Origin: Candidatus Nanoarchaeia archaeon
GTDB lineage: Archaea > Nanobdellota > Nanobdellia > Woesearchaeales > WJIZ01
NCBI GenBank assembly: GCA_028279765.1
Contig: JANQND010000017.1
Coordinates: 1 to 64,000 of the forward strand
DNA: 64,000 nucleotides
Reading direction: 5' to 3'
The notes under the pieces were generated by a model. It saw only the letters and a program-made list of their open reading frames with translations, ran no database searches and had not been told where the DNA came from. Position 1 is the stretch's first letter; the number at the start of each line of letters is the position of its first letter. The position numbers and the translations under genes were made by a program. Shown one piece after another: positions 2,475-60,351 of this stretch.

Positions 2475-3568
2475 AACAAACTGACCGTAAGAGACTGGAT
2501 GCTGCGTACAAAAAACTTCGTCGGCTAAAAACCACTTTTTTAGGATACCCGTGTGATGCTGAATTTAACTATGAGCCGCTCTACAGATTTTTGTCCTTTC
2601 CCATCAATAATGTAGGGGACCCGTTCGAGCAGTCAAATTACCAGCTACAAACGAAATCCTTTGAGCGCGAAGTATTACGCTTTTTTTCAAAGCTTTTTCA
2701 TATCAAGGACTACTGGGGATATATTACTAATGGAGGAACGGAAGGTAATTTGTATGGGCTTTATGCTGCACGAGAGCAATTTCCAAAAGCGCGGGTTTTT
2801 TTCTCAGAGCATACCCACTACAGCATTAAAAAAAATGTGCACCTGCTAGGAATGAAGTATACGAGTGTTAAAGCGCAGAAAAACGGAGAGATTGATTATG
2901 CTGATTTCGAAAAGAAAGTTTCCAAACAAAAGCAGGCAATTGTTGTGGCAAATATTGGAAGTACCCTTACCGGTGCGATTGATAATAGCAGCAAACTGCA
3001 TCGAATCCTCAAAAAGCATGGTGTTGAGAGATATATTCATGCAGATGCAGCGCTCTATGGGATGGTGCTCCCTTTTATTTCTGATATTTTATTTGATTTT
3101 AGAGTGCCTATCAAAAGCATCGTAGTAAGCGGCCATAAGTTTATGGGATCGCCTATTCCCTGCGGCGTTGTTCTTACACGAAAATCAGTAGCTAATACGC
3201 TACAGAATTATATTGAATATGTCGGAGCACATGATACTACCCTGTCCGGGTCAAGAGATGCATTTACTCCCCTTATCATGTGGTATCGGATAAAGTGCAT
3301 AGGCATACGGGGATTTAGAAAGCAAGTTGCCTACTCATGTGATCTTGCCCAGTATCTGGTTAAAAAATTACGCAGAATGGGGTGGAAGGATGTTCATTCA
3401 AGCTATATCACGGTAAGCTTTAAGCGGCCATCTGAGAGAGTGGTTAAGAAGTGGGAACTTGCTGTGCAGGGAGATATTGCGCATGCGATATGCCTTCCGC
3501 ACGATACCAAAAAGCAGCTAGATCTCTTTATCAAAGAACTGGAGGAAGAGTGCAATGAGGCACCTTAG
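2471..3568 (+). CDS. hdc: PLP-dependent histidine decarboxylase homologue (group II)
   Basis: This 365-residue protein matches the pyridoxal-phosphate group II decarboxylases, closest in pattern to bacterial PLP-type histidine decarboxylase, which makes histamine from histidine. Visible family motifs are NGGTEGN (phosphate binding), a histidine stacking over the ring (SEHTHYS), HADAAL with the PLP-nitrogen aspartate, SGHKF with the Schiff-base lysine K223, and TLSGSRDA. There is no signal peptide, so it is cytosolic. It overlaps the upstream stop by ATGA and the downstream ATG by 14 nt, so it is co-translated with two exported fibre-like proteins, an odd partnership. Substrate could be another amino acid. 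Confidence 0.8.
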   Translation: MKQTDRKRLDAAYKKLRRLKTTFLGYPCDAEFNYEPLYRFLSFPINNVGDPFEQSNYQLQTKSFEREVLRFFSKLFHIKDYWGYITNGGTEGNLYGLYAAREQFPKARVFFSEHTHYSIKKNVHLLGMKYTSVKAQKNGEIDYADFEKKVSKQKQAIVVANIGSTLTGAIDNSSKLHRILKKHGVERYIHADAALYGMVLPFISDILFDFRVPIKSIVVSGHKFMGSPIPCGVVLTRKSVANTLQNYIEYVGAHDTTLSGSRDAFTPLIMWYRIKCIGIRGFRKQVAYSCDLAQYLVKKLRRMGWKDVHSSYITVSFKRPSERVVKKWELAVQGDIAHAICLPHDTKKQLDLFIKELEEECNEAP

Positions 3569-6500
3569 ACCTGTACTCTTCTTTGTACTGTTTAGTGCTC
3601 TTCTGCCGGGTATCTTTGCTGCAGAGTACTGGGTGAACAACCCCGCAGACTGCCCTTCCCAGGACCAGGGTAATTTTTCCGGGCAAAATTGTGCCCCTGA
3701 AGATATTTGCGGAGACAGTTCAGGAATCGCACAGTGCTTCGATACCAGTACTATCACTGCTCCAACTTCTAATGCCACTTCTTCTTCTAATGCTGATGAC
3801 GGCAGTTTTGATGGTGGCTATGTCCTTAATTGTTTTGCAACTGCTGACAGCGCTGCTCCTTTTTGTGATAATAGCGGGAGCTTTTGGTGTGATGCAAACT
3901 CAACCCTGACTAATTCTCCTATCTATAGGCAAACTATTTGTCTAGGGACCGATTCTGCAGGAGGCTTTGGAGCTACTAGCGCTGGCTCCTGTATTAGCGG
4001 AAGGTTTGATTGCTTTGGCGATACCGACTGCGAATCAACGTCAAGTTCTGCCTGTTCTCAGGGAGGCTCTAATAATGCCTATAATACAGGTACCTGCACT
4101 ACCGGCCTTGGTGGAGGCAGCGGTACCTGTATTTGCACTGGCACTGCGTTTGCCTGCGATGGAGGAATTGACGATACAGATGGCTGCGAGTTTGTTGGAG
4201 GGGCTAGCTGCGGCAGCAGCACGGGTACGTATGTTGAAGACCAGTGTATAAGCGGGTCTGCGGCTAACTGTACTTCCTCATCTAATGCTGATTGTGATAA
4301 TGATGATTCCGACGGAAATCTGCTGACCTGCAATGGTGCAAATGGCTGCGAGATTACTTCAGGAGGGTCTTGCGGTTCCGGAACAGGGACTTATGCATCA
4401 AGCCAGTGTGTGGGAAGTTCGGGAAATTGTACGAGCAGCGGAACTAATTTAGATTGTGATAATGATGACAGTGATAGTAATGAGTTAACGTGCAATGGGG
4501 CGAATGGCTGTGAGATTACGGTTGGAGGGGCGTGCAGCGTTGGGTCGTTGTCCGGAACCTATTCAAGCTGTTCTGGTGGGGCTGGAGTTTGTGTTGTTAC
4601 TCAATCTGATTTTAGAACTGGAAATGAAACTTCTTATTCTTCCAGTGATCCTTTATTGTGGGGCTCACAGTATGGTTCCGGTTACCTGATTAATATGAGC
4701 AATGGAACGGAGTTACGGTTTGGTGTTAATAAGACCGGCTGTATTGTGTTTAGTGATGGGACCACTCAGTGCACTTCTGGTGATAATGCAAGTGCAGATA
4801 CCTCCGGCCTTGTGCCGTATAGTGGAGCTACTCAAAATATTAATTTGACAGATAAGAATGTGACGACTACTGGGACTGGCTTTTTTACTTTCTTAGGAGG
4901 TTTAGTTAGCAGAATTACTACCTTATTTGTTGTGAATATTGATGCTTCTGGGAATATTAATGCCAGTAACTATACCCTGAACGGAACAACAATAGATGAT
5001 TGGAGCGATGTTGATACGGATACTCAGAAGACCACTTTTGAAAACCAAAGCTATATTTATAATGATACCACTATTATTTATTTTAATGAAACTCATCTTA
5101 ACCGGACAATTGACCTCAGAGAAAACGACACTACTTATACCGCAGGAGAAGGAGTAGTTATTAGCGGAACAGAAATTAATGCCACTTTAGGAACCTCTAT
5201 TAGTAGTAGTGAGATTGAAGCCGGTGCGGTGAATACGACGCATATTCTGGATGGGAATGTGACCGATGCTAAGATCAGTTCACTTAACTGGACGAAGCTT
5301 AGCGGTGTTCCGGCCGGATTTAGTGACAACGTGGATAATAATACCCTTTATTTTGCTGGAGGGGTTTATGTGTATAATAATGGCAGTGATTATTTCTTTT
5401 TGAACGAGACAAGGTTGAATGCTACTGTAAGGAGCCTGATTTTGCTGAACAGAACTAATGGGGTGTATATTTATGTGGTTAATAAGAGTATCATCCTGAA
5501 TGAAACGAAGTTGAATGAAACAATTAATGCCATAGGGAATCATAGTGCAGGGGACGGCATAACGATTGTGAGCAAGCAGATTAATGCTACACTTGGAACC
5601 TCAATCAGTAATGCCGAGGTTGAGGCCAATACAGTGAATACAACTCAAATTATTGATGGGGCCGTTCAGGCAGTTGATTTGGCTAATGAGGCTGTGACCA
5701 ATCCGAAGATAGCTGCTGATGCAGTTAATACTACCCAAATTATTGACGGTCAAGTTACCAATGTTGATATTGCTGCGAACGCTGTGAATACTACTCAGAT
5801 TGTTGATGGGACAATCATCGCTGATGATTTGAGTGCCAGCTCAGTTAATACGACACACATAGTAGACTCGACGATTACCGATGCGGATATTTCCGATACA
5901 ACTAATTTAACTTTGGGACAGAGAATCGTGTTTGCTCTTGGTGGGTTTATTCAGAATATGGTGAGTGGACAAGTTGATGTAAATGGGACTCTGAATGTTA
6001 CTGGAGGCTTGATTGTTGATTCAGGAACTTTGTTTGTTAATGAAACAAATAACAGAGTTGGTATTGGCACTTCAAGCCCTACAACTGCTCTTGAAGTGAG
6101 TGGTAATACAACCATCGTTGGTAACTTGAATGTAACAGGAACTTCTTACCTCGGTGATGTAACTTTAACAAGCGATAATATTACCGTGAATAATGTCTTG
6201 AGCAAGGATGGGAATATTACCTTCTATAATAATACTGGTGGAGAGAGTGTTAGGATTACTCAAGAGGGGAGTGTTGGTATTGGAACAACTTCGCCAAGTC
6301 AGACGCTTACACTTGCAGCAGGCGGATTTCTTCAAACTCCAGGGAACCCAACTCATGTGGGTAACATCAGTGATAGTGTAACGACAGAACTTAATGGTGC
6401 ATCTGGCATCTATATCTCTGGAAAGTATGCGTATGTTGCAAGCCTTAATGACGATGGTGTGGAAATCTTGGATATTTCTGATCCTGCTAATCCTACGCAT

Positions 6501-9500
6501 GTGGGGGCTATTAGTGATGATGGCACTACCGAACTTAATGGTGCAATTGGTATTTATGTCTCCGGGAAATATGCGTATGTTGCAGCTCGTGACGACGATG
6601 GTGTGGAAATCTTAGACATTTCTGACCCAACAAATCCAACACATGTTGGTGCCATTACAGATGATGCTACAACAGAGCTTGACGGCGCAAACGGCATTTA
6701 CGTCTCTGGAAAGTATGCGTATGTTGCAGCTCGTGACGACGATGGCGTGGAAATCTTGGATATTTCTGACCCTACTAACCCCACGCATGTTGGGGCTATT
6801 ACTGATAATGCAACAACTGCACTTAATGGTTCACGTAATATTTATGTTTCCGGGAAATATGCATATGTGACGGCCTTTGATGATAATGGTGTTGAGATTT
6901 TGGATATTTCTGACCCTACTAATCCCACGCATGTTGGAGCTATTACTGATAATGCAACAACTGAACTGCTTGGCGCAGGAGATATTTATGTTTCAGGGAA
7001 ATATGCGTATGTGACTGCTGAGACAGATGATGGCCTGGAAATCTTAGACATCTCCAATAAGAGCAATCCTACCCATGTTGGAGCTATCACCGATGATGGC
7101 ACTACTGAACTTAACGGCGCAATTGGTGTGCAGGTTTCCGGCGATTATGCGTATGTTTCAAGTGTTAGTGCTGGTGTTCAGATTTTAGATATTTCTGATC
7201 CTACCAATCCTACGCATGTGGGGGCTATTAGTGATGATACGACAACAGATCTCAATGGTGCTTTTGATGTCGCTATTTCGGGGAAATATGCATACATTGC
7301 GGCTGCTCTTGATGATGGTGTTGCAATTTTAGATATTGGTGGCATTGATGCGCCTTCTACAAGCGTCGGGGATGTTTCTGCTTCAACAATAGATGTGACA
7401 GAGAATGTTGATGTTGGAAATAATCTTTATGTAAGGAATGGAATTAATGTTGGGCCTGGAGGGATTTTGTCAGATGGCCCGATAGGTTTTGATAATGGTA
7501 CTTTATCGAGCGGGAATGGGACTGTTGCTGTTAAAGGAGATTTGAATGTTTCAGAGGTTGTTTATGGGAATGGTTCTGGGCTGACAGGTATTGGAGCAGG
7601 TAGTTTGAATTCTGGTTCGATTAATACAACACATATTTTGGATGGGACAATTAGCGCTGCTGATATTGCAGCTGATTCAATTAATACTTCTCATATTTTA
7701 GATGGAAATGTGACATCTGCGAAAATAGCAGATAATACAATCACTGCTGCTGACATTGCTCCTGATAGTATTAACGGAACAGAGCTTGCTGATACCTTGA
7801 CTCTTGATGCCAATCTAAATATTGGTGGAGGATTTAACTTCAGTGTGAACAATTCTAATTTATTTGTTGATGTTAGTAGTGGAAGAGTTGGGATTGGGAC
7901 AACAAGCCCAGGACAAAAGTTAGTGGTTGTCGGAGACTTGAACGTCACAGGAACTTCTTATTTAGGAGACGCTATAATTGATTCTGATAATATTACTATT
8001 AATGATATCTTTCCAAAAGATGGAGGGATCGTTACTGTTGAGGGGGATTTGAATGTGACTGGAGATGCAATTTATAGTGGGGATATTGAGCGATGGAATA
8101 CAGGTGCAGCGCTTAATCGTAAATATTGGGATATTGCCCATTTTTCTAATACAATTAACTTTCGTACAATCAATGACGGACGTTCTGCTGCATATTCATT
8201 TATTACTGTTGCTCAAGAAAGTGGAAGCCATGTGCCTGCAGAGCTACAGTTAACTGGAAAAACTGTTACCCTAGAATCTTCAGGAGATGATAATTCTGCA
8301 GTTATTGATTCCTCTTTAACGTTGAATAGTTCTGGAATTATTGTTTCTGGGAATGCAACTGTTCTTGGTAATTTGAATGTTACCGGGACTTCGTATCTTG
8401 GCGATGTGACTTTGACAAGCGATAATATTACGGTGAATAATGTCTTGAGTAAGGATGGAAATATTAGTTTTTATAATGATTCGGGAAGTGAAAAGGTTAG
8501 GATAACTCAAGATGGGAAGGTTGGGATTGGAACAACAGACCCAGGTAATTCTGATCTTATGGTTTCGGGAGGCATAAGTAATGGAGCAGGTCAAGGTGAC
8601 TCTGATGTTTGGGTAGGAGAAAGTCTTTCAAGAAACCTGGTATTGGCTTGGAAAGATGCTGCTACTGATTATGCAGTAGTTGAAACTTTTGGTGGTTCGG
8701 GAGCCTTGGCTCTTCAAACAGCAGGAGGTAATGTTGGTATTGGAACAGCAAGTCCCGCTGCAAAATTAGATGTTCTGACTGGTTCAACAAATAATGATAT
8801 GAACATTGTATTTAACGAAACAGGAACAGATCAGCAAAAAATTCTTTTCCAAGAAGCAGATCTTAATTATTTTGGAATCTTTCACAACGGTAGTGCCTCA
8901 AATCCAAATAATAAATTAACTTTCCAGGCAGCTGATGGAAATGATGGCAAGTTAGATGTAAACGCATTAACCATCTTGCAAAGTGGTAATGTTGGGATAG
9001 GGACAACAAATCCTGAAAAAAAGGTAGTTATAGATGTAGGAAATGCTGCAGTGGACGGATTACAAATTATAGGTAGCGATACCCCCTATTTTATGATTGG
9101 AAATTCTACTTCTAGTCAGAATTTGGTTCTTGGTAAAGTTGGTGAAGACGGCGATTACAGTAATTTTGCCACTTCTGGAGATGGTGTAGTCAGAGCGTCA
9201 CAAGGAGATCTGATTTTAACGGCCAGAAACACGAATGGAAATATTCTATTTGGAACAAACAATAGCGATACAGAAAAAATGCGTATTGATACTTCTGGCA
9301 GGGTGGGTATTGGAACAGCGAGCCCAGCAACAACGCTTGACATCAATGGGACCTTGACAGTGGGTAATATCGGAGACAATTCTCATATTATTATCAATGC
9401 TGCAAACAATAAAAGTGCAATCATTGGCGTACAAGATGATGGTGATCAAGGTTTTTATGTTCAAACTAATGGTTCATATAGGGTTAGTGTTAATCAAAAT

Positions 9501-12107
9501 GGAAGGGTGGGTATTGGAACTACAAGTGCAACACAAAAACTTGATGTTGAAGGAAGTGTTCGAGCGTCTGACGCGTTAGAGCTTGGAGATGGTAGTACCC
9601 TTGCATTCGCTAGTCAAACACAAACATTTACGTGGGACAGTAACTCAGCAAACTATCGCTCGGTAAGTGGTTCCACTTCAGACAATTCAAACAATCGAGA
9701 TATCTACTTTCGACCAGATGGGCTCAAAGCATACATTGTGGGGTTGGGAAGCAGTAGTAACGAAGTAAATGAGTATGATCTCACTACTGCATGGAATATT
9801 TCTACGATCACTTTCAATGACAGATTTGATACGGGCACCCAAGAAACATCCCCACGTGGTATTTTCTTCAAGCCAGATGGTACCAAGATGTATGTGCTTG
9901 GAGCATCTGGAGACGATGTAAATGAATACATGCTTTCGACTCCCTGGGATATAACCACGGCATCATTTGTGGGAATAGGCGATCTTGATTCCAGTGAAGC
10001 TTTACCGGAAGGATTGTTTTTGAGTCCTGACGGAACAAAAGTCTATCACGCTGGAGATACTAATAACTTCGTATACCAATATACACTTTCTACTGCTTGG
10101 GACATCACTTCTATCGGGTCGGCAAGCACATTCAATGTCACTTCCCAAGATGCTAATCCACGTTCAGTCTATATTTCTCCTGATGGATCTAATATGTATG
10201 TTTCTGGTCAGGCAGGCGATTCGATATTTGAGTACATACTTACTACTCCATGGAGCATCACAACTGCTGTTTATGAGACAACTCTTGATGTTTCTAGTGT
10301 GACAACAGATCCAGAATCTATGTTCTTCAGTTACAACGGAGATTCTATGTTTGTACTTAGTTCAGGCGGTACTGTTTATGATTACGACATGGGTCTAATT
10401 GTTGGAGGAAACGTTGGAATTGGAACAACAGATCCTTCTGGCCCTTTACATGTTGTTGAGAGTAGTGGTTCTGGAAACTTCTACTTTGATGGAGAACATT
10501 TTGCTACTCTAATCCTTCGCTCCGATACTGACAGTGATAGTAGTGGTGCAGACCCTTCGCTGCGTTTCTTTACTGATGGTGGCACCTTTAAAGGAGAGAT
10601 AGGAATTGATGACAGCGATAGTGATAAACTCAAACTCCACAATGGTGGTTCAGCTGGATTTTCAGGGAGTGATGGCATCACTATAGAAACTTCAGGCGAT
10701 GTTGGTATTGGTGCAACAAGCCCTGCAACAGCACTCCATGTGCATGATACTGGTGACACCAACATTTTCCGTCTTGAAGACGACGATGGAACGTGTAATT
10801 ATAATCCGGAGTCAGGTTCTGTTACGGTTTCTTGTTCTTCTGATGAGGAATTAAAAGAAGATATTCATGAAGCTGAATCTGTTTTAGATGATTTTGAGAA
10901 GATACAAGTTAGGGATTATACTATTAAGGCAAGTGGGGATGAGACAACTGGTGTTGTTGCACAGGAAATTCAGGAGACAAATCCTGATATGGTTCACAGT
11001 GTTGAAATTATTGATAAGTCCACTAATGAAACTGAGGAGCTTTTGTTTGTTGAACAGCCTAACCCTTGGAGGTTATTGAAAGGTATTCAAGAGCTAGATG
11101 AGAAAATTGATAGTCTGGCTGGTGGGAATTATTCTGCTAAGGCTAAACCAACTTTTAATGAAGATAGTGTTGGTGTTGCTACAGTTTCAGTTAATGAAAC
11201 GGAAGTTACTATCGAATTTAGTGAGGAATATGCTGCTAATCCTATTGTTACGGTAACTCCTGTCGGCTTGCCTACTTTCTTTTACGGTGTTGATAATATC
11301 AGCACAAAGGGCTTTACTATTTTGATTAGTGAGGCTCAGGAGAAAGAATTTACGTTTAACTGGCATGCGTTTGCGCAAGACAGTGCAGCAAGCGAACCAA
11401 AGGAAGAGAAAGAGAGTAATAAAACTATAAGCATAAATGAGTCCCTCCTTCAGAACAGGACCCTGGAGCCTGCTTTAGAGAACCTATCAGAGGATCTCAA
11501 GATAGTGCCGATCAATGATACCCTTCTAAATCAAACGAATGAAACGATCACTCCTATAGAGGAAAATGTAATTATTAATAATTTAACGTACCAATCGGGT
11601 ACATCATTTGATGCAGATGATGATGGCGTTGAAATGCCGGGAGGAGTCATTGATTTTAGCGTTGATACTACTCAATTTAACTGGGATGTTAATGAGAGCA
11701 ATGTCTGTACCTGGTGGAATGTCTATAGCGTAGATAATGAAGAATCTGCTGCACTTTGCTACGGCTCTGAAAAATGCTGCCAATTTTTAGGGATGTCTTC
11801 TTCAAAAAATTCCTGGAAAGAGCCGTTTTATCTCACCGATGAGTATGGGTTGAATACTATCATTAGCACCCAGGTTTCCTATGTGGATTATAGTGTCGAT
11901 CCCGAAAACCCTTATTCTACTATTCATTATAGTGATTGGGAAAGTGCAAGCGGCACCTTTTACGAAGAAATAAATAGTACTGAGAAGGAAACTTCCGGCA
12001 ACCAGACTGGTTTAAGCCTGATTTCTGTGGCAGGAAATATTATTTCAGAGATAGAAAATTTGCTGAACCCTGCTAAAGGACTGGATAAGAGCTCTCTTTA
12101 TTCATGA
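3555..12107 (+). CDS. giant exported fibre/propeller protein with S74 chaperone domain
   Basis: This 2850-residue protein begins with a signal peptide (about 1-22). In order it shows Cys-rich modules (about 200-330), tail-fibre-like NTTHILDG/AxxIxDG repeats (about 554-785), ten VGIGT-type repeats between about 835 and 2385, seven LVIVD-like propeller blades of 47-48 residues (931-1262), a second five-blade propeller-like set (about 2045-2280), and an S74 intramolecular chaperone domain (SDEELK with S2429 and K2434, then GVVAQEI). About 416 residues follow, with a beta domain near 2550-2610 and a Cys-bearing domain from about 2717. No C-terminal membrane anchor is seen. Sequons are abundant. 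It is probably a secreted trimeric fibre; that is inference from phage S74 proteins. Confidence 0.85.
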   Translation: MRHLRPVLFFVLFSALLPGIFAAEYWVNNPADCPSQDQGNFSGQNCAPEDICGDSSGIAQCFDTSTITAPTSNATSSSNADDGSFDGGYVLNCFATADSAAPFCDNSGSFWCDANSTLTNSPIYRQTICLGTDSAGGFGATSAGSCISGRFDCFGDTDCESTSSSACSQGGSNNAYNTGTCTTGLGGGSGTCICTGTAFACDGGIDDTDGCEFVGGASCGSSTGTYVEDQCISGSAANCTSSSNADCDNDDSDGNLLTCNGANGCEITSGGSCGSGTGTYASSQCVGSSGNCTSSGTNLDCDNDDSDSNELTCNGANGCEITVGGACSVGSLSGTYSSCSGGAGVCVVTQSDFRTGNETSYSSSDPLLWGSQYGSGYLINMSNGTELRFGVNKTGCIVFSDGTTQCTSGDNASADTSGLVPYSGATQNINLTDKNVTTTGTGFFTFLGGLVSRITTLFVVNIDASGNINASNYTLNGTTIDDWSDVDTDTQKTTFENQSYIYNDTTIIYFNETHLNRTIDLRENDTTYTAGEGVVISGTEINATLGTSISSSEIEAGAVNTTHILDGNVTDAKISSLNWTKLSGVPAGFSDNVDNNTLYFAGGVYVYNNGSDYFFLNETRLNATVRSLILLNRTNGVYIYVVNKSIILNETKLNETINAIGNHSAGDGITIVSKQINATLGTSISNAEVEANTVNTTQIIDGAVQAVDLANEAVTNPKIAADAVNTTQIIDGQVTNVDIAANAVNTTQIVDGTIIADDLSASSVNTTHIVDSTITDADISDTTNLTLGQRIVFALGGFIQNMVSGQVDVNGTLNVTGGLIVDSGTLFVNETNNRVGIGTSSPTTALEVSGNTTIVGNLNVTGTSYLGDVTLTSDNITVNNVLSKDGNITFYNNTGGESVRITQEGSVGIGTTSPSQTLTLAAGGFLQTPGNPTHVGNISDSVTTELNGASGIYISGKYAYVASLNDDGVEILDISDPANPTHVGAISDDGTTELNGAIGIYVSGKYAYVAARDDDGVEILDISDPTNPTHVGAITDDATTELDGANGIYVSGKYAYVAARDDDGVEILDISDPTNPTHVGAITDNATTALNGSRNIYVSGKYAYVTAFDDNGVEILDISDPTNPTHVGAITDNATTELLGAGDIYVSGKYAYVTAETDDGLEILDISNKSNPTHVGAITDDGTTELNGAIGVQVSGDYAYVSSVSAGVQILDISDPTNPTHVGAISDDTTTDLNGAFDVAISGKYAYIAAALDDGVAILDIGGIDAPSTSVGDVSASTIDVTENVDVGNNLYVRNGINVGPGGILSDGPIGFDNGTLSSGNGTVAVKGDLNVSEVVYGNGSGLTGIGAGSLNSGSINTTHILDGTISAADIAADSINTSHILDGNVTSAKIADNTITAADIAPDSINGTELADTLTLDANLNIGGGFNFSVNNSNLFVDVSSGRVGIGTTSPGQKLVVVGDLNVTGTSYLGDAIIDSDNITINDIFPKDGGIVTVEGDLNVTGDAIYSGDIERWNTGAALNRKYWDIAHFSNTINFRTINDGRSAAYSFITVAQESGSHVPAELQLTGKTVTLESSGDDNSAVIDSSLTLNSSGIIVSGNATVLGNLNVTGTSYLGDVTLTSDNITVNNVLSKDGNISFYNDSGSEKVRITQDGKVGIGTTDPGNSDLMVSGGISNGAGQGDSDVWVGESLSRNLVLAWKDAATDYAVVETFGGSGALALQTAGGNVGIGTASPAAKLDVLTGSTNNDMNIVFNETGTDQQKILFQEADLNYFGIFHNGSASNPNNKLTFQAADGNDGKLDVNALTILQSGNVGIGTTNPEKKVVIDVGNAAVDGLQIIGSDTPYFMIGNSTSSQNLVLGKVGEDGDYSNFATSGDGVVRASQGDLILTARNTNGNILFGTNNSDTEKMRIDTSGRVGIGTASPATTLDINGTLTVGNIGDNSHIIINAANNKSAIIGVQDDGDQGFYVQTNGSYRVSVNQNGRVGIGTTSATQKLDVEGSVRASDALELGDGSTLAFASQTQTFTWDSNSANYRSVSGSTSDNSNNRDIYFRPDGLKAYIVGLGSSSNEVNEYDLTTAWNISTITFNDRFDTGTQETSPRGIFFKPDGTKMYVLGASGDDVNEYMLSTPWDITTASFVGIGDLDSSEALPEGLFLSPDGTKVYHAGDTNNFVYQYTLSTAWDITSIGSASTFNVTSQDANPRSVYISPDGSNMYVSGQAGDSIFEYILTTPWSITTAVYETTLDVSSVTTDPESMFFSYNGDSMFVLSSGGTVYDYDMGLIVGGNVGIGTTDPSGPLHVVESSGSGNFYFDGEHFATLILRSDTDSDSSGADPSLRFFTDGGTFKGEIGIDDSDSDKLKLHNGGSAGFSGSDGITIETSGDVGIGATSPATALHVHDTGDTNIFRLEDDDGTCNYNPESGSVTVSCSSDEELKEDIHEAESVLDDFEKIQVRDYTIKASGDETTGVVAQEIQETNPDMVHSVEIIDKSTNETEELLFVEQPNPWRLLKGIQELDEKIDSLAGGNYSAKAKPTFNEDSVGVATVSVNETEVTIEFSEEYAANPIVTVTPVGLPTFFYGVDNISTKGFTILISEAQEKEFTFNWHAFAQDSAASEPKEEKESNKTISINESLLQNRTLEPALENLSEDLKIVPINDTLLNQTNETITPIEENVIINNLTYQSGTSFDADDDGVEMPGGVIDFSVDTTQFNWDVNESNVCTWWNVYSVDNEESAALCYGSEKCCQFLGMSSSKNSWKEPFYLTDEYGLNTIISTQVSYVDYSVDPENPYSTIHYSDWESASGTFYEEINSTEKETSGNQTGLSLISVAGNIISEIENLLNPAKGLDKSSLYS

Positions 12108-20908: not shown

Positions 20909-23900
20909 ATGAAAAAAAGAGCAGATTTTTCTATTCGTCGGTATATTAGACAGAATCTCAAGAAGGGTTTTTCTGAATCGCATATCAAAAGGTACCTGAC
21001 TGATTATGGGTATAGTAGTCAGTATATAAGAAAAGAGTTTGATGTAGTAAACAGGCAGCGTGTGCTTGCCTACTCTGTCTTTTTCATTGCACTATTTGCT
21101 TCTCTATTTTTTCTTGTTAAGCCTACGACGGTAGGATATGCAGTGTATGATGCAAGCTATCCTGCTGTATACTTTGCTTCAGGTGATTTCAGCTCTCAAA
21201 AAGGAATTGTCTACCAAGGGAGAACGGCTGATAATGAACAAAAAGCCTATCAGGGAAAGTCGGCACTTTCTATTCAAGGAAAGCAACACGGTTCTGTTAA
21301 TATAGTTGACTACAACAAAGATGGAAATGATGATCTGTTTACCACAGGATATTATACTAATTCTGAGGGAGATGAAATTGCTGCAACAAACCTCTATGAT
21401 AACTTTCAGAGTAATGTGGGGAGTTTTATCAATCTAAGAAACTCTGACTCCTGCTGGGGTGATTTTGATAATAATGGCTTTGAAGAACCTGCTATTATTG
21501 GAAGAGATGACGATAACAATAGGTACTTTCAAGTGTATAAGAATACTAATGGGCAAATTAGTAGCGACTATTCCCTAGGAGGATTAAAGTTCGGTTCCAT
21601 TGAATGCTTTGATTCCAATGGTGATGGGTATGATGACTTAGTAGTTTGTGGAGAAGATACCAATGGAGAAAAGTACTCTGCGTTTTACAGAAGTAATAAC
21701 GGAGTACTTACTGAAACGCAAACATTTAGTGGAATGAAAGATTGCTCTATTACTGTCAATGATTTCACTGATGATGGATTTGCTGACATCATCATTGCGG
21801 GAGAAAATACTAATTTTGATAAAGTTGTTCTTTTATTACAGTCTGATGGCTCAAGTTTTTCAGGAAGAGAGATATTGGATTCTCTCAGCCTAACTTTACC
21901 TTCTGTATCCTCGGGAGACTATGATGGAGATGGATGGGTGGATTTTGCTATTTCTGGAAGCTCGGGGGGAAGTCAGTCCTACATATACAGCAACATTAAT
22001 GGTGATTTCCAGCAAGAAAGTTTAGATCTCACTAAACTAAGACATAGTTTTCATTCATTTGCAGATATTGATGGGGATACGGTATTAGACTTTTTTATTG
22101 TGGGAGAAGATAAGCCCTCTGTGGGAGGAGGCACACCCAAAACCCAACTTATTACAGAATTCGCTTCTCCTGTAGAAGAAGAACCAGAACCAGATGTTGA
22201 AAACGAAACCATCGAAGAGCCAACCCTAGAAGAAGAACCCATAAACGAAACCATCACGCCTATTCTCAACCCCTTCCCGGAAACGGATGTGGAAGATGAA
22301 ACCAGATGGACGGAAACCAGGAATTTCAACCATATCAAGTATTTTGCGCAGTATCAGCATGTGAACGGCTATACCTTAGTTGAGGAAATCATCCTTAACG
22401 AAGATATTTATGCGCATGATGAGGTCTACATTTTCCATAATAATAGATACAGAATTGATGAGCCGGGAGAATACAGCATAAAAGACGATAAAATTGACTT
22501 CAATATAGGCTTATTAAACCCGGGAGAAGGGGAAAAACTTATTTTCCTCTTAAGCGGTGAGGTTCCTTTCGAGAATATCATCCCCACACAAATTCGATCC
22601 AAACGATTCATCCCGCCAAAGCCAGTAGTAAAAGAAATACTCAATATCACCGAAGATATAACAATAGAAGAAAACAAAACGATTATCCCTATTAACCTTA
22701 CGCTCAATGAGTCAATATTAGCAGAAGAGGGAGTGTGTGTCAATGTGCATATTCCTGAATGCCTCAGTGAAACCATAAACGAACTGAGCTTCGAATCCAA
22801 TAGAGAATTTAGCGTGGTTGGAGAGAGTATCAGGTTCTGCTTTGAAAATATTGTTGAGCAGGAATCTTTCTCGCTGCAGGTGAATTCCATTGCTGATGAG
22901 CAATGCCTTAATGAAATCAGGGCGGAAAAGCTGGCAAAAAACATCCTGGTACAAAAGGATAAATTCAAGCCAGCAAATGCACTAGTACTCTTAGTAACCG
23001 TCATCTTTCTGACTATTCCCACCTACCTTTTCATCAATAATGCGAAGAAACAGCAAAGAAACGTTGCCTTAATCGTTTTTGCAATTGGGTTCATCATCTT
23101 AAATATATTCGATACCGCAGGACTGTTACCGGAAAGCCTGGATTTCCTCAAAAAACTGTTCTCCTGGGTTCTGATGATTTCTTTACTCTACCATGTTTCG
23201 TTAAGGCACACTCTTCTCAGCGGACATGAAGACCAAAGGAAGGGAATACTCTTCAACGTATTACTCCTCTCTGCGTTTATCATGCTGTCCATGAAAAACC
23301 TGATCTATGTTGCGTTTAAGACGTATGCGAAAGAAAAATGGTTTAGTGATCTATTAATGCCTATCATTAAGTTTTCTCCACTTTTACTCACCTATTCTTC
23401 CTTCATTGGGTTAGTCATTATTCTGCTAGCAACGCTCTATGTCGTGCATAAGATAATGCTTGCCGGGCCGTCGTTTGCCTCACTCATTCATAAAACCGAA
23501 TATAGTTTTATTACGGGTGCCTGGAAAAAACCCCTCTACGTGCTATTAATCTTCCTGGGCTTTTACATGACGTTCTTCAATTTCCTGTTTGGGTGGTTTT
23601 CTATTGCTTTTGACGGACCCTTCCTTATTCTTGTCCTGCTAGTAGTGGGATATTCTACCATGGTACAAAAAAAAGGAGGGATCAGGGAGATACCTGATAA
23701 AGCAGATACCCTGATCGAGAAATTTATGAAGCTCTTCACACATGAGAAAAATGTGTTTATTGCTTTTAGTGCATTTCCCCTGGTTATTTTTGTGGTAGTG
23801 ATGTACAGTTACCTGGTGTACATGCTCTTTGGCGTGCGGAATATTTATTTTGAGGGTATTGAGGTTGTCATGCCTATACTTGACCATTTATCATTATCAC

Positions 23901-24940
23901 TGAATCTTTGGCCCTTGTATCTTTTACAATTATCCGGGCTAGTGTGTGCTTTAGTTCTGGCATTCCTGTTCTGGTGGCATTTTTTCATGCAAAGAGAGCA
24001 CGCTAACTCCATCATTAAAGATCGGCCAGATCATCCCCTCTTATTTTCTTTATTTGTTACTGCGTTTGTTTCCTTCATCATAAGGCCTATTTTCAGGATT
24101 GCTACCCTGGATAATGAAAACCTTGGAATACTCATCACCCTCAAGGAGACTGTTCCTGCCGATATGCTCACTCCTCTCTATGTTGGCCTTTCTGTGCTGT
24201 TTATTGTTTGCTATCTTTTCTTTAGGGATAGCAAGAAAACAAACATTATTCCTTATGCAATGGTGCTCTTTACGGTGGTGTATGTGAATGTGCTATACAT
24301 GAAGAGTATTTTTTCTTTTGTCGATCTTGATGTGATTGATTCGTTTGGCATCTCTGAGTTTATTGTGTTCATGACGAGCGTGAATTCTGCTTTTTTCATT
24401 TTCATGACGCTGCTCTATCTTGTTATCCTTGCGTTTTCCCTGTATGCGCTTGCAGGAGAGTTCCTGCATCTGGTGAAAGAAGAGTTCTCAGATAACAAAT
24501 TCTACCGTAAACTAATGGTGAGGCTATTTGCCCACAAAGTAGTTATTCCGGAGCATCAAAAACATCAGATCAAGAAATACATGGAAGATCTCTTAGAAAA
24601 AGGAGAAGAAGATTATCTGGTGATTGAGCATATCCATAAGCATACCCATCTACCGCTGAAAGAGATTTCTCTCATGCTTCGAGAACTAGAGGAAGATGAC
24701 GAGCAAAAGCAGCGCTATCATCATATCAATCATTATCACCATAATTTAGGCTATATCAAAATGCTCTATAAGTCTATCAAAAAGCAATATTATAAGATGG
24801 GTATTGATGCCGAGACAATTATTGATAACTGCCTCAAAAAAGGCGTGAGCCAGGATGATATTGCCGCTGCAATGATGCATATTCACTATAAGAAGAAGGA
24901 TAGGGAGCTTTTTGCTGCTATGCGGCAGGTAAATTTGTAA
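20909..24940 (+). CDS. large polytopic membrane protein with FG-GAP ectodomain
   Basis: This 1343-residue protein has a cytosolic N-terminal helical module (about 5-50), one membrane helix (51-72), and an ectodomain with at least six FG-GAP/VCBS-like repeats carrying Ca-binding motifs such as DYNKDGNDD, DSNGDGYDD and DYDGDGWVD (about 120-405), an integrin-like propeller. A Glu/Pro-rich linker with sequons (about 418-465) and a beta domain (470-685) follow, then about 13 membrane helices (691-1185). The C-terminal 150 residues are helical and His-rich, and end in another copy of the helical module. It resembles a receptor or transporter with a sensor domain; no known family was recognised. Confidence 0.7.
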   Translation: MKKRADFSIRRYIRQNLKKGFSESHIKRYLTDYGYSSQYIRKEFDVVNRQRVLAYSVFFIALFASLFFLVKPTTVGYAVYDASYPAVYFASGDFSSQKGIVYQGRTADNEQKAYQGKSALSIQGKQHGSVNIVDYNKDGNDDLFTTGYYTNSEGDEIAATNLYDNFQSNVGSFINLRNSDSCWGDFDNNGFEEPAIIGRDDDNNRYFQVYKNTNGQISSDYSLGGLKFGSIECFDSNGDGYDDLVVCGEDTNGEKYSAFYRSNNGVLTETQTFSGMKDCSITVNDFTDDGFADIIIAGENTNFDKVVLLLQSDGSSFSGREILDSLSLTLPSVSSGDYDGDGWVDFAISGSSGGSQSYIYSNINGDFQQESLDLTKLRHSFHSFADIDGDTVLDFFIVGEDKPSVGGGTPKTQLITEFASPVEEEPEPDVENETIEEPTLEEEPINETITPILNPFPETDVEDETRWTETRNFNHIKYFAQYQHVNGYTLVEEIILNEDIYAHDEVYIFHNNRYRIDEPGEYSIKDDKIDFNIGLLNPGEGEKLIFLLSGEVPFENIIPTQIRSKRFIPPKPVVKEILNITEDITIEENKTIIPINLTLNESILAEEGVCVNVHIPECLSETINELSFESNREFSVVGESIRFCFENIVEQESFSLQVNSIADEQCLNEIRAEKLAKNILVQKDKFKPANALVLLVTVIFLTIPTYLFINNAKKQQRNVALIVFAIGFIILNIFDTAGLLPESLDFLKKLFSWVLMISLLYHVSLRHTLLSGHEDQRKGILFNVLLLSAFIMLSMKNLIYVAFKTYAKEKWFSDLLMPIIKFSPLLLTYSSFIGLVIILLATLYVVHKIMLAGPSFASLIHKTEYSFITGAWKKPLYVLLIFLGFYMTFFNFLFGWFSIAFDGPFLILVLLVVGYSTMVQKKGGIREIPDKADTLIEKFMKLFTHEKNVFIAFSAFPLVIFVVVMYSYLVYMLFGVRNIYFEGIEVVMPILDHLSLSLNLWPLYLLQLSGLVCALVLAFLFWWHFFMQREHANSIIKDRPDHPLLFSLFVTAFVSFIIRPIFRIATLDNENLGILITLKETVPADMLTPLYVGLSVLFIVCYLFFRDSKKTNIIPYAMVLFTVVYVNVLYMKSIFSFVDLDVIDSFGISEFIVFMTSVNSAFFIFMTLLYLVILAFSLYALAGEFLHLVKEEFSDNKFYRKLMVRLFAHKVVIPEHQKHQIKKYMEDLLEKGEEDYLVIEHIHKHTHLPLKEISLMLRELEEDDEQKQRYHHINHYHHNLGYIKMLYKSIKKQYYKMGIDAETIIDNCLKKGVSQDDIAAAMMHIHYKKKDRELFAAMRQVNL

Positions 24941-43270: not shown

Positions 43271-43406
43271 GGCCCTATAGCCCAGTCTGGATAAGGCGAC
43301 TATGGGATGCATTGCATCTTATCGCTAGAGCCTTCTAAGCTGAGAAGTTTAGGAAGTTATCCTGACTTCGCTGAATAGATCCTGGGTTCGAATCCCAGTA
43401 GGGCCA
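43271..43406 (+). tRNA. tRNA-Arg (UCU) with two introns in the anticodon stem
   Basis: The mature 75-nt tRNA comes from three exons: 43271-43300, 43329-43342 and 43376-43406. Acceptor GGCCCTA/TAGGGCC, T-arm CTGGG/CCCAG with TTCGAAT, and variable loop AGATC are canonical. Joining the exons gives the anticodon stem ACAGC/GCTGT around loop CTTCTAA, anticodon TCT. Intron 1 (28 nt, 43301-43328, between positions 28 and 29) shows a bulge-helix-bulge: central helix GGCG/CGCT, three-base bulges and a 9-bp intron stem. Intron 2 (33 nt, 43343-43375, between 42 and 43) shows a 5-bp stem GAAGT/ACTTC and a weaker central helix AGC/GCT. A TTTTAAAA box at about 43237-43244 precedes the gene. Confidence 0.88.
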
Positions 43407-43425: not shown

Positions 43426-44526
43426 TCAAGGCAGCCAAGTCTTTTGATCCTTAATCTTCTGTGGAAGATATTTCTCAACTACAAAGTTGAGTCCCCACTT
43501 AGCTAATGCCTGCTGCTCTGCCCTTACTTTCATGGTTGCCATTTGCTTCATGGCTTTTTGCCAGGGCTTGTGGTGAATCATGAATGGATCATTCTTGACC
43601 GCATCCTTGATACGCTTAATGTCCACATCCTTCAGAGGATGGGTCGGGAGCTTGTAGTCAATGATATCCTGCGGTGTGACTCCAATAAACTTTGCGTTGG
43701 GAACACAAAAGAACTCATTGATATGTGCTGCATTTCCTGATCCTACCTTGAGCGTTCTATAGATATTTGCGAATCCATAGGGATCACCGTCAGTGAATAC
43801 ATAGACCGGTAGCTTCATCTCGTCACTGAGTTTTCGGATAAATCGCCTGCATGCCCTGGTTGGCACTCCGCCCAGACTGATAAGAATGCAATTTGCTTTT
43901 TTCCAGTAATTATGCTTTACCAGCCTTTGAAACATACCCGCGGTTTCAATGGCAAGAATGAATTTTGCATTGGTTTGGAATTTAAGCTCTTCTACAGAGC
44001 TAGGTATGGAATATGCTCCTGATCCAAACTTGGTGCAATCAATCTTGATTTCTTTTCCTGTTTCCGGATCCTTGTCGATAACGATTAGTTTTCCTGCAAT
44101 GTCTCCCCCTTTTTCTTCAGGAATGAAGCCAATCTGCTCACGGTTGACCTGAATCATTGCCTCAACATCATCCATGACGGTATCGGACTCCGGCTGGGAA
44201 TCGAATCGTGCATCTCCCCAGTTCTTGCTCACATAGTATGCTTCTCTCTTGGTTGCAATATCATCGGTATCTACTAACTCTTTTGAGAGTCCCATCATTC
44301 TGAGAGTCTGGGCAAAGGTTTTCACCGAAGAGGCAGTCAGTGTTCGCTCCTTCATTTTTCCGGTGAGTTCGAAGTATCCGTCCTTAGGATCATACTTTAC
44401 GTTAGATAAGGCCCTGAGAGGCATATCAACGGTGGGCTGTTTTTTCTTGAGAATGGATTTATAGATATTGTCAGCAATAGTTTTGATGCCATCCACAGCG
44501 CCTTGTCGTTTCTTTTTTGCAGCCAT
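43426..44526 (-). CDS. top6A: DNA topoisomerase VI subunit A
   Basis: Top6A is the DNA-cleaving subunit of the archaeal type IIB topoisomerase and a relative of Spo11. The 366-residue protein has a CAP-like domain with the tyrosine pair in TKREAYYVSKNW (about Y97/Y98) and a Toprim domain with E in AIETAGMF and the metal motif YVFTDGDPYGF (DxD). It is adjacent to top6B, 1 nt apart, in the order KH protein, top6B, top6A. Together with top6B it relaxes and decatenates DNA. Confidence 0.95.
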   Translation of the reverse strand: MAAKKKRQGAVDGIKTIADNIYKSILKKKQPTVDMPLRALSNVKYDPKDGYFELTGKMKERTLTASSVKTFAQTLRMMGLSKELVDTDDIATKREAYYVSKNWGDARFDSQPESDTVMDDVEAMIQVNREQIGFIPEEKGGDIAGKLIVIDKDPETGKEIKIDCTKFGSGAYSIPSSVEELKFQTNAKFILAIETAGMFQRLVKHNYWKKANCILISLGGVPTRACRRFIRKLSDEMKLPVYVFTDGDPYGFANIYRTLKVGSGNAAHINEFFCVPNAKFIGVTPQDIIDYKLPTHPLKDVDIKRIKDAVKNDPFMIHHKPWQKAMKQMATMKVRAEQQALAKWGLNFVVEKYLPQKIKDQKTWLP

Positions 44527-59969: not shown

Positions 59970-60240
59970 GACTTTTCCTTCGCAGGCAGACTAGGCCGGT
60001 GCAGTAGTCCTGCATTGTTACCGCAAACGGACTTTATGGCGGGGCTGAAGCCTGGGAAGAGGTATTATGATGAGGATTTGGTCCTTGCCTGGACAATGAG
60101 GCTCTGTCCTTTGGGATTGGTTTTTTCAGGAACCAGGTCACGCTCAAGATGCAGCCTTTTGCGCCTGAGAGGATGGGAACATAGCAGCCTTAACTGATTA
60201 AACCGGTGCTCTTAGGGTAGCGGAGCAGAGAAAAGGCAGG
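59970..60240 (+). ncRNA. ffs: SRP 7S RNA
   Basis: This is the RNA core of the signal recognition particle. Helix 1 is formed by CTTTTC-CTTCGC (59972-59983) and GCGGAG...GAAAAG (60220-60235). The Alu-domain core GACTAGGCCGGTGCAG...TGTTACCGCAAACGG and GGGGCTGAAGCC match archaeal 7S RNAs. The S-domain has the helix 8 region with GGTCA and GCAGCC (about 60130-60155). A TATA-like box 20-25 nt upstream sets the 5' end near 59970-59975. An ORF on this strand (59901-60197) is rejected. The ends are approximate. Confidence 0.85.
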
Positions 60241-60351
60241 GGTTCACCAGTTCTTGTCATGGTATCCATTTTCAGGTGTGTCTGCCTACTCTTTTTTGAT
60301 TTGTTACTACTTCTCCCAAAGACTTTTAAATACCTCCTGCATAGGCAGTTT

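Follow-up and report, generated by a model that had tools for sequence, protein, structure and literature searches.

Pre-tRNAs with several introns are known from the Thermoproteales, e.g., Pyrobaculum and Thermofilum (PMC4090602, PMC3218864). Efficient removal of relaxed introns has been ascribed only to (alpha-beta)2 and epsilon2 enzymes (PMC6379350), and introns are described as few and canonical where the enzyme is alpha4 or alpha2 (PMC4090602). Among open-licence papers, none on tRNA introns or on the EndA type of Woesearchaeota was found. The locus described here lies in the window, i.e., the whole stretch of 64,000 nucleotides that was analyzed, and belongs to a genome of 1.50 Mb (G000; 31 contigs, 90% complete). 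Sequence comparison strongly supports a tRNA-Arg(UCU) gene with two non-canonical introns: some homologues have the first but not the second, others the second but not the first, at exactly the positions seen here. The following features were assigned:

43271-43300 (+): exon 1 of tRNA-Arg(UCU); acceptor 5' strand and D arm, positions 1-28; matches intronless relatives
43301-43328 (+): intron 1, 28 nt, position 28/29; HBh' motif; homologues at 28/29 known within the family and the order
43329-43342 (+): exon 2 of tRNA-Arg(UCU), 14 nt; positions 29-42, anticodon UCU at 43334-43336
43343-43375 (+): intron 2, 33 nt, position 42/43; near-full BHB; 42/43 introns recur in relatives
43376-43406 (+): exon 3 of tRNA-Arg(UCU); from position 43 through discriminator A73, no encoded CCA
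43426-44526 (-): topoisomerase VI subunit A, neighbour gene; many relatives have a tRNA-Arg(UCU) close to the homologous gene

Mature tRNA and tRNA set of the genome

The joined exons (43271-43300, 43329-43342 and 43376-43406) yielded the 75-nt sequence GGCCCTATAGCCCAGTCTGGATAAGGCGACAGCCTTCTAAGCTGTAGATCCTGGGTTCGAATCCCAGTAGGGCCA, which forms a complete, perfect cloverleaf with the anticodon loop CTTCTAA, the anticodon stem ACAGC/GCTGT and the T arm CTGGG-TTCGAAT-CCCAG. This full cloverleaf with UCU after splicing is conserved in relatives, as expected of a functional tRNA-Arg(UCU), and the letters of exon 2, AGCCTTCTAAGCTG, are kept in homologues. Re-reading and re-splicing of the sequence reproduced the coordinates, mature sequence, anticodon UCU and both intron spans of a preliminary description, together with its 14-nt middle exon, 9-bp hairpin and ACAGC/GCTGT stem. 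The introns had also been described as facing each other at 28/29 and 42/43. Both positions are correct and lie on opposite strands of the anticodon stem, but the sites are not exactly opposite; they are offset by 1 bp, site 28/29 being located between pairs 28-42 and 29-41, and site 42/43 between pairs 27-43 and 28-42.

The gene was missed by Rfam and ARAGORN at default settings. Given the joined exons, ARAGORN returned tRNA-Arg(tct); the unspliced sequence (43271-43406) was called tRNA-His(atg), and the single-intron intermediates tRNA-Pyl. A tRNA-His(AUG), or another tRNA, with one long intron would agree with the call on the unspliced sequence, but a separate tRNA-His(GUG) is present in the genome and the exon homologues across the order are tRNA-Arg (UCU or CCU), so that this reading is contradicted by homology and extremely improbable. 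That general tRNA finders miss or misname the locus would also fit a decayed tRNA pseudogene with insertions, AGA being read by another tRNA. Decay is very unlikely, since the exons are intact and all stems pair, both insertions fit BHB geometry and are position-conserved across genomes with compensatory changes, and the 90%-complete assembly yielded no other tRNA-Arg(UCU). A second, intact gene for this tRNA had been named beforehand as evidence that would speak against the two-intron gene; it was looked for in the assembly and not found. Arg is encoded most often by AGA in the window (179 of 527 Arg codons), so that, with no second gene found, the gene at 43271-43406 is probably essential.

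Introns were present in 20 of the 23 well-scoring parsed tRNA genes, four of which had two. Eight of the 24 introns were non-canonical in this genome-wide parse, which may be in error for some few anticodons or junctions of the other tRNAs. The 14-nt middle exon is not the shortest one, because the tRNA-Phe(GAA) gene (L055, 1376, +), with introns at 30/31 and 37/38, has a middle exon of 7 nt. D-loop introns were observed in other tRNA genes of the genome (L011, L017, L020, L063), and L011 has three intron-bearing tRNA genes at short distances from one another. In L006, L044 and L047, as for the unspliced 43271-43406, ARAGORN gave tRNA-Pyl(CUA) or tRNA-His(AUG) for intron-containing sequences that parse as tRNA-Lys or tRNA-Arg. 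Calls of tRNA-Pyl in such intron-rich genomes should be distrusted, and common tRNA finders overlook or misname genes of this kind. Elsewhere in the window, a 2850-aa open reading frame (3555-12107, +), a 1343-aa protein with FG-GAP repeats (20909-24940, +) and an archaeal SRP RNA (59984-60287, +) were noted.

Intron motifs and junctions

Intron 1 is of the BHB class. Its helix H is formed by exon GGCG (43295-43298) and intron CGCT (43323-43326) with 4 of 4 pairs, the 5' cut lies at a 3-nt bulge (ACT, cut after AC), the 3' cut follows AG in AGA, and the inner hairpin h' comprises 9 bp (43302-43310 with 43314-43322). The strict hBHBh' motif was absent: the outer helix had 0 pairs in 17 of 17 distinct 28/29 introns, that of G000 included. 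The "ideal bulge-helix-bulge" originally attributed to intron 1 was consequently replaced by a relaxed HBh' motif, as the exon bases outside H are unpaired. Compensatory variation was found in the 17 distinct 28/29 introns, h' pairs 1, 2 and 4 being standard in 17, 17 and 16 of them, respectively; none of 500 column shuffles gave pairing as good. G004, a member of the same family, has a 28/29 intron that is also 28 nt long and resembles intron 1 in sequence.

Intron 2 has the fuller motif of the two, and its geometry is hBHBh'. The outer helix h (TCT/AGA, 43334-43336 with 43377-43379) has 3 bp, the inner hairpin h' 6 bp and more, and H (AAGC, 43337-43340, with GCTG, 43370-43373) 3 of 4 pairs, with one A.G mismatch that is common to 4 of 7 introns at 42/43. 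The 3-nt bulges are TGA, cut after TG, and AAT, cut after AA. In the seven 42/43 introns, h' pair 3 was standard in all seven and represented by four pair types, i.e., with compensation. Both BHB elements could in principle form together, because they draw on separate bases.

Junctions were evaluated with a parser written during this analysis, which enumerates 0-2 BHB introns in the region bounded by the acceptor and the T arm. The top model used junctions 28/29 and 42/43 with a score of 43.95, followed by a model with 39.65; the intron-aware prediction proposed in the preliminary description thus returned the same junctions, ranked first. When the interior (43295-43381) was shuffled 600 times, a mean score of 31.5 (sd 2.1, maximum 38.75) was obtained, and none of the 600 shuffles reached the real score. 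Neither junction can slide without altering the mature sequence, as the bases that would need to match differ at each. The parser's next-best models had either a junction at 24/25 or an extended variable arm, and GCTGA is present at both ends of intron 2, as might be seen if the 28/29 intron were the sole real one and accompanied by a long variable arm, or if a junction lay elsewhere, e.g., at 24/25 instead of 28/29. These models scored 4 to 6 units lower, retention of GCTGA breaks pair 27-43, and 42/43 introns with the same ends and complementary hairpins occur in several genomes; such arrangements are therefore considered most unlikely. Upon unconstrained thermodynamic folding of the precursor, the BHB of intron 2 was not favoured (pair probability near 0). 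The cloverleaf of the mature tRNA was also missed, and free-energy folding is not diagnostic for this reason.

The same gene in relatives

A pattern search was performed in 353 genomes of the same archaeal order, with patterns that need near-exact exon sequences, so that further double cases could escape. The 28/29-intron pattern in tRNA-Arg(UCU) was found in 25 of the 353 genomes and the 42/43-intron pattern in 11; G000 was the only genome in both lists. Besides G000, the 42/43 intron was parsed in G011, G255, G295, G296, G364 and G376, and recognized by eye in G168. The 42/43 pattern matches in G172, G248 and G325 could not be parsed as 42/43 introns and seem fortuitous. A 42/43 intron without a 28/29 intron is present in G011, G255, G364, G376 and probably G168. 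Other intron pairs combine a D-loop intron with 28/29 (G446) or with 42/43 (G295, G296). Intronless tRNA-Arg genes (UCU or CCU) of many relatives match across both junctions, that of G022 with 89% over 74 nt. Within genus g245, G364 (L250) carries a 42/43 intron and G365 and G366 (L230, L231) match the 28/29 pattern; the genes are orthologous, and the flanking DNA beside the tRNA is homologous, with 75-77% identity over 1.3-1.4 kb.

In named Woesearchaeota/Nanoarchaeota MAGs, the vicinity of topoisomerase VI A repeatedly contains a tRNA-Arg(UCU), either intronless or with introns at 28/29, 37/38 or 42/43. In the topoisomerase VI A tree, in which most deep forks are weak, intron position requires about 10 changes on 21 tips and is no more clustered than chance. 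In this tree the nearest relatives either share the 28/29 intron or are intronless, and with modest support the 28/29 intron would thus be the older one, the 42/43 intron having arisen later in this lineage. The gene probably represents a double-intron state in a lineage where the intron position of tRNA-Arg(UCU) often changes. The natural series (28/29 only, 42/43 only, both, 37/38, none) is suited for studying gain, movement and loss of tRNA introns.

Taken together, positions 43271-43406 are very probably a working, and probably the only, tRNA-Arg(UCU) gene of a Woesearchaeota-type DPANN archaeon, with two short introns of the BHB class, the 28/29 intron being older and the 42/43 intron probably a later gain. 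Counting against this explanation are the A.G mismatch in H of intron 2 and the published alpha4 enzymes, which are said to prefer strict motifs and for which efficient cutting of HBh' would not be expected.

Splicing enzymes and comparison with known systems

The genome contains one EndA gene (L021, 189 aa) and one RtcB gene. Judging from these genes, EndA would cut the transcript at 28/29 and 42/43, and RtcB would join the exons. The 14-nt middle exon pairs little with the outer exons, so that the introns would probably be removed in turn, ligation at one being completed before the other is cut.

The closest PDB match of EndA was the catalytic subunit of Nanoarchaeum equitans (3iey_A), and the protein aligned nearly full length to the alpha4 enzyme of M. 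jannaschii (1a79). A profile search of the genome with PF01974 gave this one match only and no second EndA subunit to E 10, a limit at which a very divergent partner could escape. EndA accordingly resembles the alpha4 type in gene content, as a single full-length, single-domain catalytic subunit with no second subunit gene detected. Features of enzymes with the crenarchaeal loop (CSL) or the ARMAN loop (ASL), each with a conserved Lys, or with a fused three-unit subunit were absent: no insertion was seen where S. tokodaii 2cv8 has its KPK-containing one, which fits the crenarchaeal loop as described (PMC12397907), and the length of 189 aa shows no fusion. The EndA proteins of relatives across the order are similar in this respect. 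Family f47, which belongs to the same class, gave alpha matches with weak beta matches next to them (most E 4e-5 to 0.007), so that the search is able to pick up beta subunits; weak second PF01974 matches occurred in some genomes (E 0.009 to 2). An endonuclease of broad specificity, which the preliminary description took to be implied, was not established, since the sole EndA, a full-length alpha-type protein, lacks both CSL and ASL, and the search gave no beta subunit.

Reviews link non-canonical relaxed introns to special-loop (alpha-beta)2 or epsilon2 enzymes, whereas the order studied here appears to pair them with one plain-looking EndA. With many non-canonical relaxed introns and an apparently alpha-only EndA, the order appears to break the published enzyme-intron rule. 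Either the alpha-type EndA class would be broader than published, or a partner protein would exist. A wider proposal, tentative and held at somewhat less than even confidence, is that a single-subunit, loopless EndA removes HBh' introns in Woesearchaeota-type archaea, either as a third route to broad specificity or with an undescribed partner, and that the tRNA-Arg(UCU) intron moves among few fixed sites, two of which are occupied here.

The closest counterparts are the introns of relatives (G001, G003, G004, G011, G036, G255, G364 and others), which share the gene, positions and motif types with G000. The relatives carry just one of the 28/29 and 42/43 introns, to which a few add a D-loop intron (G295, G296, G446), whereas G000 has both. 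Compared to the Thermoproteales, the present organism belongs to a DPANN phylum, and its EndA is apparently single-subunit, theirs being (alpha-beta)2 with CSL; 28/29 and 42/43 are absent from the positions named in PMC4090602, which gives an open-ended list. The split and tri-split tRNAs of Nanoarchaeum and Caldivirga likewise have non-canonical junctions and BHB-like motifs, but their pieces are separate transcripts, whereas those of tRNA-Arg(UCU) are contiguous on one strand. Archaeal tRNAs with several introns are already known, and the present gene is a further case, in which the intron type would not have been expected alongside the apparent enzyme type.
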